Positions 35,122 to 39,845 of a DNA stretch of 64,000 nucleotides are shown here, one piece after another (the stretch's first letter is position 1; every line of letters starts with the position of its first letter). The notes beneath the pieces were generated by a model. That model was not told the origin of the DNA, made no database searches, and was given only the letters and a program-made list of their open reading frames with translations. The stretch comes from Kitasatospora sp. NBC_01246 (GTDB taxonomy: Bacteria; Actinomycetota; Actinomycetes; Streptomycetales; Streptomycetaceae): the NCBI RefSeq assembly GCF_036226505.1, contig NZ_CP108484.1, forward strand, positions 5,518,001 through 5,582,000, given 5' to 3'. Made by a program: the position numbers and the translations under genes.

Positions 35122-36735
35122 CTAGTTGACGTTCACCGCGCTCCAGGCCGCGGCCACCGCCGCGTACTGGGTGCTGGTGGTGCCGTAGAGGTCACCGGCC
35201 GCCTTCAGGGTCGCCGTGCGGGCGGCCTTGTAGTTGGTGGTGGAGGTGAAGTAGACGGTCAGCGCGCGGTACCAGATCGCGGCGGCCTTGTCCCGGCCGA
35301 TGCCGGTGACGGTGGAGCCGTTGGAGGTGGGGCTGTTGTAGCTGACGCCGTTGATGGTCTTGGCGCCGCTGCCCTCGGCCAGCAGGTAGAAGAAGTGGTT
35401 GGCCACGCCGGAGGAGTAGTGGACGTCCACGTTGCCGACCCCGGAGTACCAGGAGTCCTTGGACGCGCCGTCCTTCGAGGGCTTGTCCATGTAGCGCAGC
35501 GGGGTGCCGTTGCCGTTCAGGTTGAGCCGCTCGCCGATCAGGTAGTCCGGCACGTCCGAGGGCAGGTTGGCGTACCACTCGACCATGGTGCCGAAGATGT
35601 CCGAGGTGGCCTCGTTGAGGCCGCCGGACTCGCCGGAGTAGACCAGCCCGGCGGTGGCGGAGGTGACGCCGTGGGTCATCTCGTGGCCGGCCACGTCGAT
35701 GGCGGTCAGCGGGTGGGTGTTGCCCGAGCCGTCGCCGTACGTCATGCAGAAGCAGGAGTCGTTCCAGAACGCGTTGACGTAGTTGGAGCCGTAGTGCACC
35801 CGGCTGCTCGCGCCGACGCCGTTGTTCTTGATGCCGCTGCGGCCGAAGGTGTTCTTGTAGTAGTCCCAGGTCGCGCCGGCGCCGTACTGGGCGTCCACCG
35901 CGGCGGACTGGGTGTTGGAGGCGAGCCCGTTGCCCCAGACGTTGTCCGCGTCGGTGTACAGCGCGTTCCCGCTGGCGGCGTTGCCCGTCCACTGGTTGCC
36001 GCGGGAGGCGTCCTTGAGCTGGTAGGTCGAGCCGCTCTGGGTGGTGGTCAGCGGGACGCTGCCGACGAAGACGCCCTTGCCGCTGCCGTTCGCGGTCTGG
36101 AACTCCTCGTGCGTGGAGAGCACCTCACCGGTGGCCGCGTCGGTGACCAGCCGCTGGCTGCTCGGCGTGCCGTCGGCCCGCTCGCCCTTGACGACGGTCT
36201 GGTACGCCAGTCGCGGGTTGCCGTCGGCGGCCCAGACCACCAGGGTGGCCGTGCCCGCGCCGTCGACCCGGCTGATCGCCGACTCGTCCTTGTCCGCGGC
36301 GATGCCGACGGTGGCCCGGACGGCGCCGAGCGCCTGGGCGCCGGCCTTGTCGGCGGAGAGCGCCGGGGTGAGGCTCGGCAGTGAGAGCTGCCCGCCGAAC
36401 GCCCGGTCCACCGAGGTGATCGCGCCGTCGGCCTTCTGGTGCACCACCAGGTCGCCGCCGAGGACCGGCAGGCCGCCCAGGGTCCGCTCGTAGCGCAGGT
36501 GACGGGTGCCGTTGGCGTCCACCACGGCGTCCTTGGCGACCAGCCGCTCCTGGCCGCCGAGGGCGAGCGCCTGCGCCACCGGCGGGGCCTCGCTGCCGGC
36601 CAGCGAGATCAGCGCGTCGTGCTGCTGCACCACCGAGGGCGCGGCGGCCTGGGCGGGGGCGGCGGCGACCTGGATGGCGCCGGCGAGCAGGGCGGTGGCG
36701 GAGAGTACGGCTCCGGCTGTCAGCTTTCGCTTCAC
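35122..36735 (-). CDS. secreted M4 neutral metalloprotease (copy 1)
   Basis: 537-residue thermolysin-type pre-pro-protease. A signal peptide (MKRKLTAGAVLSATALLAGAIQVAAAPAQA) is followed by FTP/PepSY propeptide domains and the catalytic M4 domain. Zinc ligands are His351 and His355 in HEMTH and Glu375 in GGLNEATSD; Glu352 is the catalytic base. GTG 36735 follows GAAGGA. The C-terminal about 97 residues are almost identical to copy 2, and 291 bp are identical at DNA level. Upstream carries AdpA-type sites. There is no extra C-terminal domain. Confidence 0.96.
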   Translation of the reverse strand: MKRKLTAGAVLSATALLAGAIQVAAAPAQAAAPSVVQQHDALISLAGSEAPPVAQALALGGQERLVAKDAVVDANGTRHLRYERTLGGLPVLGGDLVVHQKADGAITSVDRAFGGQLSLPSLTPALSADKAGAQALGAVRATVGIAADKDESAISRVDGAGTATLVVWAADGNPRLAYQTVVKGERADGTPSSQRLVTDAATGEVLSTHEEFQTANGSGKGVFVGSVPLTTTQSGSTYQLKDASRGNQWTGNAASGNALYTDADNVWGNGLASNTQSAAVDAQYGAGATWDYYKNTFGRSGIKNNGVGASSRVHYGSNYVNAFWNDSCFCMTYGDGSGNTHPLTAIDVAGHEMTHGVTSATAGLVYSGESGGLNEATSDIFGTMVEWYANLPSDVPDYLIGERLNLNGNGTPLRYMDKPSKDGASKDSWYSGVGNVDVHYSSGVANHFFYLLAEGSGAKTINGVSYNSPTSNGSTVTGIGRDKAAAIWYRALTVYFTSTTNYKAARTATLKAAGDLYGTTSTQYAAVAAAWSAVNVN

Positions 36736-37127
36736 GTACGGGGTTCCTTCCACGAAACCGCGTGTGCGCGGTCACGCCGCGTACCGGGGCGCCGGGGTTG
36801 GCGCCGTGGGGCGGTAGGGCGCTGACGTGCTGCTCCCGTGCGGTTCCGACGGCCGGTCGGTGGGTGGGGCGACAGCCGTCGAACGGGGCTTTGGTCAGAA
36901 GCATGACAAGCGCAGGTCGTGAAAGGACAGGGCGCCGCCGGCGATTGGCCAGGTCTCGCCAGTCGTCGGGTACGGGTGGTTCCGGTGTGCCGAGTGACCG
37001 GTTCGGGGTGCTTCGTCCCGCTGGCGGGATCCCGCCAGCGGCCACCCTTGTCGCTCGCCGCGGCCCTTGCTACGGCGCCGGGCCGGGCGCCGCTCCGGCC
37101 CTCCCCGGCCCGGCGCGGACGCGCGAA
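36736..37127 (-). promoter_or_regulatory. upstream region of protease copy 1 with two AdpA-type sites
   Basis: No gene. TGGCCAGGTCTCGCCA lies at 36946–36961 (one mismatch to TGGCSNGWWY on each strand), and the perfect palindrome TGGCGGGATCCCGCCA at 37022–37037 matches the consensus on both strands, with outer bases extending the palindrome to 37019–37040. The segment CTTGTCATGCTT (minus strand, near 36900) is shared with copy 2 and may contain the -10 box. Confidence 0.6.
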
Positions 37128-37163
37128 CGCCCGGGGCCTCCCCTCCCAGTGAGGCCCCGGGCG
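37128..37163 (-). terminator. terminator of protease copy 2
   Basis: Perfect 13-bp stem (CGCCCGGGGCCTC / GAGGCCCCGGGCG) with a 10-nt loop (CCCTCCCAGT). It is related in loop and stem sequence to the terminator after copy 1, showing that the duplication included the 3' flank. Confidence 0.8.
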
Positions 37164-37177
37164 CTGTCGAGCGGACG

Positions 37178-38818
37178 TCAGCTGACGTTGACGCCGCTCC
37201 AGGCCGCGGCCACCGCCGCGTACTGGGTGCTGGTGGTGCCGTAGAGGTCACCGGCCGCCTTCAGGGTCGCCGTGCGGGCGGCCTTGTAGTTGGTGGTGGA
37301 GGTGAAGTAGACGGTCAGCGCGCGGTACCAGATCGCGGCGGCCTTGTCCCGGCCGATGCCGGTGACGGTGGAGCCGTTGGAGGTGGGGCTGTTGTAGCTG
37401 ACGCCGTTGATGGTCTTGGCGCCGCTGCCCTCGGCCAGCAGGTAGAAGAAGTGGTTGGCCACGCCGGAGGAGTAGTGGACGTCCAGGTTGCCGACGCCGG
37501 AGGACCAGGAGTCGGCCGAGCCGCCGTCCTTGGAGGGCTTGTCCATGTAGCGCAGCGGCGTCCCGTCGCCGTTGATGTCGATCTCCTCGCCGATCAGGTA
37601 GTCCGGCTTGTCGGTCGCGAGGTTGGCGGAGAACTCGACCATGGTGCCGAAGATGTCCGAGGTGGCCTCGTTGAGGCCGCCGGACTCGCCCGAGTAGTTG
37701 AGCCCCGCGGTGGCGGAGGTGACGCCGTGCGTCATCTCGTGGCCGGCCACGTCGATCTCGGTCAGCGGGTGGGTGTTGGCGTCACCGTCGCCGTACGTCA
37801 TGCAGAAGCAGGAGTCGTCCCAGAACGCGTTGACGTAGTTCTTGCCGTAGTGGACCCGGCTGGTGGCGCCGACGCCGTTGTTCTTGATGCCGTTGCGGCC
37901 GAACGCGTTCTTGTAGAAGTCCCAGGTGGCCGCCGCGCCGAACTGCGCGTCCACCGCCGCCGACTGGGTGTTGGAGGCGAGGCCGGTGCCCCAGGCGTTG
38001 TCCGCGTCGGTGTACAGCGTGCCCGAGCCGGAGGTGCGGCCCTTGAGGTCGCTGGTGGACTGGTTGCCGCGGGAGGCGTCCTTGAGCTGGTAGGTCGAGC
38101 CGCTCTGGGTGGTGGTCAGCGGGACGCTGCCGACGAAGACGCCCTTGCCGGTGCCGGTCGCGGTCTGCACCTGCTCGTGGGTGGAGAGCACCTCGCCGGT
38201 GGCCGCGTCGGTGACCAGCAGCTGGCTGCTCGGGGTGGAGTCGGCGCGCAGGCCCTGGACGACCGTCTGGTACGCCAGTCGCGGGTTGCCGTCGGCGGCC
38301 CAGACCACGAGCTTGGCGGCGCCGGCCTGGCGCACCTCCCGCAGCGGCGACTCGTCCTTGTCGGCGGCGATGCCGACGGTCGACTGGACCGCGCCGGAGG
38401 CCTGCGCGGCGGCCTTGTCGGCCGGGATCTGCGGGGTGAGGCTCGGCAGCTCGATGGTCGCGGCGACGGCCTTGTCCACGGCCTCGACCGAGCCGTTCGC
38501 GGCCTCGTGCACGACCAGGTCGCCGCCGAGGACGGGCAGGCCGGCGAAGGTGCGCTCGAAGCGGAGGTGGCGGGTGCCGTCGGCGTCCACCACGGCGTCC
38601 TTGGCGACCAGTTGCTCCTGGCCGCCCAGGGCCAGGGCCTGCGCCAGCGGGCCGGCCTGACCGCTCGCCAGGGCGATCGCCGCCTCGCGCTGCTGCGCGG
38701 CCTGCGCCTGCGCGGCGGGGGTCGGGGCGGCCTGGGCGGCGGTGGTGCCCACCTGGATGACGCCGGTGAGGAGGGCGGTGGCGGAGAGTACGGCGCCGGC
38801 TGCGAGCTTTCGCTTCAC
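37178..38818 (-). CDS. secreted M4 neutral metalloprotease (copy 2)
   Basis: 546-residue paralogue of the neighbouring protease. A signal peptide (MKRKLAAGAVLSATALLTGVIQVGTTAAQA) leads into FTP/PepSY propeptide and M4 catalytic domains. Zinc ligands are His360 and His364 (HEMTH) and Glu384; Glu361 is the base. GTG 38818 follows GGAAGGA. It differs from copy 1 mainly in the propeptide and the mid catalytic domain (for example SADSWSSG for SKDSWYSG). The 3' 291 bp (37195–37485) are identical to 35139–35429. Confidence 0.96.
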   Translation of the reverse strand: MKRKLAAGAVLSATALLTGVIQVGTTAAQAAPTPAAQAQAAQQREAAIALASGQAGPLAQALALGGQEQLVAKDAVVDADGTRHLRFERTFAGLPVLGGDLVVHEAANGSVEAVDKAVAATIELPSLTPQIPADKAAAQASGAVQSTVGIAADKDESPLREVRQAGAAKLVVWAADGNPRLAYQTVVQGLRADSTPSSQLLVTDAATGEVLSTHEQVQTATGTGKGVFVGSVPLTTTQSGSTYQLKDASRGNQSTSDLKGRTSGSGTLYTDADNAWGTGLASNTQSAAVDAQFGAAATWDFYKNAFGRNGIKNNGVGATSRVHYGKNYVNAFWDDSCFCMTYGDGDANTHPLTEIDVAGHEMTHGVTSATAGLNYSGESGGLNEATSDIFGTMVEFSANLATDKPDYLIGEEIDINGDGTPLRYMDKPSKDGGSADSWSSGVGNLDVHYSSGVANHFFYLLAEGSGAKTINGVSYNSPTSNGSTVTGIGRDKAAAIWYRALTVYFTSTTNYKAARTATLKAAGDLYGTTSTQYAAVAAAWSGVNVS

Positions 38819-39317
38819 GTACAGGTCCTTCCAGGGAAACCGCGGGTGTGCGGTTGCGCCGCGTCCCGGGGTGCCGGGGTTGGCACCTGAGGGGCGGGAC
38901 GGGCGCTGACGTGCTACTGCTCCGTGCGGTCGAGCGGCGGTGCCACCGGTGAGTGGGGCGGTGGCTGCCGAACGGGGCTGGGCGAAAGCATGACAATCCA
39001 ACAAGTGAAATGACAGGTCTTGTTCATCGATTGGCCAGGTCTCGCCAGCCCGGCGGAAGGTAAACGGGGCGACAAATCCGGTCGAACCACCCCGCCTTGC
39101 AGCGGGTTACCGCCCGAACCGAGGCCTGACTACGGGCCGAACGCCGGATCGGCGGCCAACGGGCGGCCGACGGCGGGCGATTGGCGGTGGTTCACACCCC
39201 CGCAATGTGCTGGTACGGACCTGTGCGTCCCACTGGCGTGATCCCGCCACGTGTCGCGCTTGTCCACCATCAGGACGCCTGGTAACACCCCGGCGGCCCG
39301 CCGGTACGGTAAGGGGC
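38819..39317. promoter_or_regulatory. upstream region of protease copy 2 and of the MarR gene
   Basis: No gene. TGGCCAGGTCTCGCCA occurs at 39032–39047, 214 bp before the protease start, close to the spacing in copy 1 (211 bp). TGGCGTGATCCCGCCA occurs at 39234–39249, matching the AdpA consensus on both strands and lying 69 bp upstream of the divergent MarR gene. TACGGT (39305–39310) is a -10 box 7 nt before the MarR GTG (leaderless). Confidence 0.6.
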
Positions 39318-39845
39318 GTGGCCAAGCCCCTCGCACTCGACTTCGACCCGATCGCCCGCGCCGACGAGCTCTGGACCCGCCGCTGGGGCGGAGTCCCCTC
39401 GATGGCGGCGATCACCTCGATCATGCGCGCCCACCAGATCCTGCTCGCGCGGGTGGACGCCGTGCTCAAGCCGTACGGGCTGACGTTCGCCCGGTACGAG
39501 GCGCTGGTGCTGCTCACCTTCAGCCGGACCGGCGAGCTCTCGCTGTCCAAGATCGGCGAGCGGCTGATGGTCCACCCGACCAGCGTGACCAACACCGTCG
39601 ACCGCCTGGAGCGGGCCGGTCTGGTCGGCCGCCGGCCCAACCCGCTGGACGGCCGCGGGGTGCTCGCGGCGATCACCGCCCGCGGCCGCGAGGTCGTGGA
39701 GGAGGCCACCCGGGAGCTGATGGCGATGGAGTTCGGCCTGGAGGAGTACGGCCCCGACCAGTGCCGTCAGGTGTTCGACCTGCTGAGGCCGCTGCGGGTG
39801 GCCGCCGGGGACTTCACCGAGCCGGGCGCGGAGCCCGCGGAGTAG
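39318..39845 (+). CDS. MarR-family transcriptional regulator
   Basis: 175-residue winged-helix regulator. The HTH region reads LTFARYEALVLLTFSRTGELSLSKIGERLMVHPTSVTNTVDRLERAGLVGRRPNPLDGRGVLAAITARGREVV. GTG 39318 has a TACGGT box 7 nt upstream and AAGGGG between, so it may be leaderless. It is followed after 92 nt by a DUF3817 gene, which it may regulate together with the DUF3817 gene at 34.7 kb. Confidence 0.92.
   Translation: MAKPLALDFDPIARADELWTRRWGGVPSMAAITSIMRAHQILLARVDAVLKPYGLTFARYEALVLLTFSRTGELSLSKIGERLMVHPTSVTNTVDRLERAGLVGRRPNPLDGRGVLAAITARGREVVEEATRELMAMEFGLEEYGPDQCRQVFDLLRPLRVAAGDFTEPGAEPAE

Follow-up and report, generated by a model that had tools for sequence, protein, structure and literature searches.

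Which regulator reads the palindromes that stand before two tandem secreted protease genes in the soil bacterium Kitasatospora sp. NBC_01246? AdpA is the master switch of streptomycete development; its consensus is loose, and real sites are hard to tell from chance. We analyzed the locus within a 64,000-nucleotide stretch of this genome (the window) and compared it with related genomes. With a probability of about 0.7, we propose that AdpA binds the near site of each protease gene and activates its promoter, with the distal site adding to the activation. The four palindromes would probably be a genus-specific version of the known AdpA control of protease genes. The locus contains the following features.

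35122 to 36735, minus strand: M4 (thermolysin-type) secreted metalloprotease, copy A, GTG start at 36735 (Pfam FTP, Peptidase_M4, and Peptidase_M4_C).
36900 to 36908, minus strand: inferred extended −10 of copy A, TGTCATGCT (sequence).
36925 to 36930, minus strand: inferred −35 of copy A, CTGTCC, 15 nt past the near site (sequence; same place as in copy B).
36946 to 36961, minus strand: near site of copy A, TGGCGAGACCTGGCCA in protease orientation (sequence; kept in related species).
37022 to 37037, no strand assigned: distal site of copy A, the perfect palindrome TGGCGGGATCCCGCCA (sequence; cross-species comparison).
37178 to 38818, minus strand: M4 secreted metalloprotease, copy B, GTG start at 38818 (Pfam FTP, Peptidase_M4, and Peptidase_M4_C).
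38987 to 38995, minus strand: inferred extended −10 of copy B, TGTCATGCT (promoter alignment and comparison).
39011 to 39016, minus strand: inferred −35 of copy B, CTGTCA, 15 nt past the near site (promoter comparison).
39032 to 39047, minus strand: near site of copy B, TGGCGAGACCTGGCCA in protease orientation (sequence; promoter alignment; cross-species comparison).
39210 to 39223, no strand assigned: partly palindromic element CTGGTACGGACCTG, between the distal and near sites of copy B.
39234 to 39249, minus strand: distal site of copy B, TGGCGGGATCACGCCA in protease orientation (sequence; promoter alignment; cross-species comparison).
39318 to 39845, plus strand: MarR-type regulator gene, divergent from copy B and not a likely user of the sites.

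All four 16-mers named in the original prediction are present in the window sequence. Both distal sites fit the published AdpA consensus TGGCSNGWWY on both strands, and the near sites were rightly described as deviating by one base per strand (TGGCCAGGTC and, on the other strand, TGGCGAGACC, at positions 8 and 9). The near sites lie 211 bp (copy A) and 214 bp (copy B) before the protease starts, again as predicted. The further claim, that the arrangement was copied along with the gene, applies to the near site and its promoter, which occupy the same place in both copies; the distal site differs in spacing, at 76 bp from the near site in copy A versus 202 bp in copy B.

The main argument of that prediction was the consensus match. 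The plain AdpA 10-mer is not enriched in the window (9 occurrences versus 7.3 ± 2.5 expected), so the match alone is insufficient. This chance frequency, together with the location of the copy A distal site between copies B and A, would agree with the palindromes being chance matches, or terminator hairpins with no regulatory role. Counts of the palindromic form nevertheless exceed those in shuffled sequence, and the conservation across the genus described below already contradicts such a reading, which we regard as scarcely tenable. TGGC-N8-GCCA occurs nine times in the window versus 2.2 expected from shuffles, and the pattern TGGCSDGRTCYCGCCA, which covers all four sites, four times versus 0.01 expected from the shuffled window. 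In the 8.93-Mb genome, TGGCSDGRTCYCGCCA has five exact places, four at this locus and one elsewhere; as the pattern was derived from the four sites themselves, its rarity shows local clustering, not function. A terminator function is unsupported, as a terminator scan listed none of the four sites, and copy B has a better terminator candidate of its own. This is a perfect, GC-rich 13-bp stem at 37128–37163, 3′ of protease B, which is its probable terminator; it has no T run, and similar hairpins occur at the same place in other Kitasatospora.

The marR locus was compared in 36 same-genus genomes, some order-level genomes, and 80 named genomes. The marR orthologue is 84–95% identical in all 36 same-genus genomes. 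Both palindromes, the near one 203–216 bp before protease B and the distal one about 84 bp before marR, were found in 32 same-genus genomes, the window included. The five remaining same-genus loci comprise three with no protease beside marR, which have no site there, one that retains a protease B fragment and has lost the palindromes (L113), and one on a contig that ends too soon (L125). At another locus (L128), the protease match falls in two pieces, reflecting a broken gene or an assembly error, and both palindromes are intact. The B near site occurs without an exact B distal site in Kitasatospora sp. GP82, Peterkaempfera griseoplana, and one Streptacidiphilus. Across the family, the near-plus-distal pair pattern with a gap of 145–175 bp was found in 21 of 298 genomes, every one a Kitasatospora.

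Loci that have marR and lack an adjacent protease show to which gene the sites belong. No TGGC-N8-GCCA was found near marR in about 60 such loci, mostly from Streptomyces (L115, L118, L121, L131–L134, L150, and L157–L214). Since the palindromes are absent where the protease is absent and marR is present, the sites belong to the proteases and not to MarR. The distal site of copy B does end 69 bp from the MarR start at 39318, and palindromes of such length are bound by MarR proteins, which would be in agreement with operators through which the regulator controls itself and the proteases. We rejected MarR autoregulation through these sites, which follow the protease, and the wider reading is very improbable given the protease-free loci and a separate palindrome kept in the marR promoter. 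The latter is the perfect palindrome GTCCACCATCGTGGAC (GTCC-N7/8-GGAC type) in other Kitasatospora, including one without the protease (L150), and reads GTCCACCATCAGGAC at 39262–39276 of the window, just 5′ of marR. The GTCCACCATCGTGGAC-type palindrome is a better candidate operator for MarR itself. The marR start lies about 7 nt past a TACGGT-type −10, indicating a probably leaderless transcript.

Between the distal and near sites of copy B, the motif TGGT/AGGT-N4-ACC(A/T) is present in 22 of 32 Kitasatospora B promoters. In the window, CTGGTACGGACCTG shares the TGGT-N4-ACC(A/T) outer arms of the DasR dre element, A(G/C)TGGTCTAGACCA(G/C)T (PMC4398421), whereas its centre is unlike dre and its occurrence is limited to those 22 promoters.

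Read in protease orientation, the near and distal sites of both copies yielded 35 distinct 16-mers, all with invariant TGGCG and GCCA around a variable centre. TGGC and GCCA were set by the search itself, which limits independent information to the fifth G and the regular positions; an alignment of 22 promoter regions made without this requirement displayed conserved blocks identical to these. Four A copies (L103, L117, L119, and L122) have a broken upstream arm and retain the promoter-proximal GCCAA at its position. Kitasatospora promoters share one layout, in which the near site is followed by 15 nt, CTGTCA, another 15 nt, and the extended −10 TGTCATGCT. All 23 promoters in which a −35 can be recognized have 15 nt between it and the near site; nine genomes have no recognizable −35. 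Relative to the inferred transcription start, the near site would be centred at about −60, and the distal site at about −137 in copy A and about −262 in copy B. The footprinted AdpA sites of Streptomyces griseus sgmA reportedly lie around −60 and −260, positions that closely resemble those in copy B.

The sgmA gene (vnz_25255, SCO5447) is a direct, positively regulated AdpA target, adjoined in S. coelicolor by its homologue SCO5446 (PMC12466573), and its dependence on AdpA has been described in S. griseus (PMC6784218). Like the Kitasatospora genes, sgmA encodes an M4 protease, and its adjacent M4 homologue in S. coelicolor parallels the tandem copies. Streptomyces sgmA-type promoters read GGCCA-16-CTGACA-15-TG in 20 of 20 cases, 18 of 19 promoters of the shorter second gene of the Streptomyces tandem share the 16-nt spacing, and 18 of the 20 sgmA-type boxes fit TGGCCGRAWH; in S. 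venezuelae, the TTTCCGGCCA box stands 16 nt ahead of the −35. Both genera therefore place the box 15–16 nt before the −35 within the same −35/−10 layout. In contrast to Streptomyces, the Kitasatospora box is palindromic, begins with TGGCG, and is accompanied by a matching distal palindrome; among the Streptomyces protease orthologues we found no palindrome, only the single box. The Kitasatospora genes also adjoin marR, whereas the examined Streptomyces marR loci have no M4 protease.

Copies A and B both contain the thermolysin propeptide, catalytic, and C-terminal M4 domains (Pfam). Unlike SgmA, they have no C-terminal extension: the proteins, of 537 and 546 amino acids, end in the M4 C-terminal domain, and the open frames of Streptomyces sgmA-type genes are longer (about 690–760). 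The closest Streptomyces relatives of the Kitasatospora proteases are the shorter second genes of the sgmA-type tandem. In the protease tree, the A and B copies from the part of the genus to which the window belongs fall into two supported clades; other clades and Kitasatospora sp. GP82 have further A/B pairs, which group apart. The two copies are more alike in their C-terminal halves (80–87%) than in their N-terminal halves (58–77%), with the same trend in every species tested (L096–L154). The greater likeness of the C-terminal halves and the clade-dependent pairing suggest repeated duplication or exchange between the copies, both of which are possible.

With respect to the AdpA consensus, distal B sites fit TGGCSNGWWY at 10 of 10 positions in 36 of 37 nonredundant sequences. 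Near B sites fit at 9–10 of 10 positions in 32 of 41 nonredundant sequences and depart from the strict form (W at position 8 or 9) in most species. AdpA-bound oriC boxes are likewise one base off the consensus (PMC3411110). As candidate AdpA sites, the near sites, despite their one-base deviation, turn out to be better supported than the distal ones. ChIP-seq of AdpA in S. venezuelae gave the motif TGGCCGRAWH(YSRHC), with a 3′ extension for which the authors had no explanation (PMC12466573). The Kitasatospora distal site TGGCGGGATCCCGCC fits this motif at 14 of 15 positions, differing in a G for C at position 5 and in its invariant GCCA arm; the second arm overlies the 3′ extension, which is a reading of the consensus and not a measurement.

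AdpA itself is encoded in this genome. The orn-linked AraC-family gene matches PDB entry 3w6v (E 1.7e-59), the crystallized DNA-binding domain of S. griseus AdpA, to which the domain in this genome is highly similar, and the adpA region is 97–100% identical among 12 Kitasatospora genomes. In each of 12 Kitasatospora genomes, the adpA open frame (here L267, 1029–3593) reaches far past the core at both ends, with long, variable flanks that carry Gly/His/Gln-rich stretches at the N-terminal end and Pro/Arg/Ala-rich stretches at the C-terminal end. If the whole frame is translated, Kitasatospora would have an unusually long AdpA. A scan for palindromes upstream of adpA fell mostly inside the open frame continuous with the gene and was therefore an unfair test. 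The SSI inhibitor family, another AdpA target, is absent from 9 of the 12 Kitasatospora genomes tested.

We favor AdpA because the near site holds the same position and promoter geometry as the Streptomyces sgmA box, because sgmA is a direct AdpA target and AdpA is present in this genome, and because the promoter-proximal GCCAA stays at its position even in A copies whose upstream arm was lost. The main doubt comes from the second arm, which is conserved although a one-sided AdpA site needs none; palindromic symmetry is not required by the published consensus. A further doubt is the lack of any genome-wide enrichment that would make the palindrome a regulon marker: allowing up to two mismatches, it is rarer than the reversed control, and among matches in six Kitasatospora genomes no locus except the protease locus recurs.

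These doubts bear on whether a different dimeric Kitasatospora regulator, possibly an AdpA-like AraC-family paralogue, binds TGGCG-N7-GCCA and took over the ancestral AdpA position. Two preserved arms around a variable centre are typical of sites read by a dimeric repressor or activator, the pattern hardly occurs outside the protease locus, and AdpA-like AraC-family paralogues of 48–54% identity do exist, one of them in this genome (C1:5419551–5420453). We nonetheless judge such a regulator unlikely, as the promoter-proximal arm lies exactly where Streptomyces sgmA-type genes have their AdpA-motif box, both strands of the distal sites fit the AdpA consensus, and no candidate regulator gene co-travels with the protease. 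Our tentative suggestion, which we hold with less than even confidence, is that in Kitasatospora the one-sided AdpA box was replaced by TGGCG-N7-GCCA, read either symmetrically by AdpA, a mode not described so far, or by a dimeric regulator that displaced it.

Returning to AdpA as the preferred reader, we infer its mode of action from the sequence and conservation of the sites, their link to the proteases, the promoter geometry common with Streptomyces sgmA-type genes, and the presence of AdpA. The palindromes would form two pairs of putative activator sites for two tandem sgmA-type M4 protease genes. AdpA bound at the near site, just 5′ of the −35, would recruit RNA polymerase and activate transcription from the predicted start. 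The distal site may serve as an auxiliary AdpA site that raises expression as AdpA accumulates around the onset of aerial growth. The ancestral box was probably one-sided, and the second arm would have been fixed later in Kitasatospora, giving TGGCG-N7-GCCA.

AdpA control of sgmA-type proteases is already known; for the genus-wide palindromic form with its matching distal site, we found no description in the literature searched. The locus provides an evolution-supported set of sites with a promoter geometry that is constant over dozens of species. With such a set, it becomes possible to test whether palindromes are read by AdpA and whether the 3′ extension of the S. venezuelae ChIP-seq motif is accounted for by the second arm.
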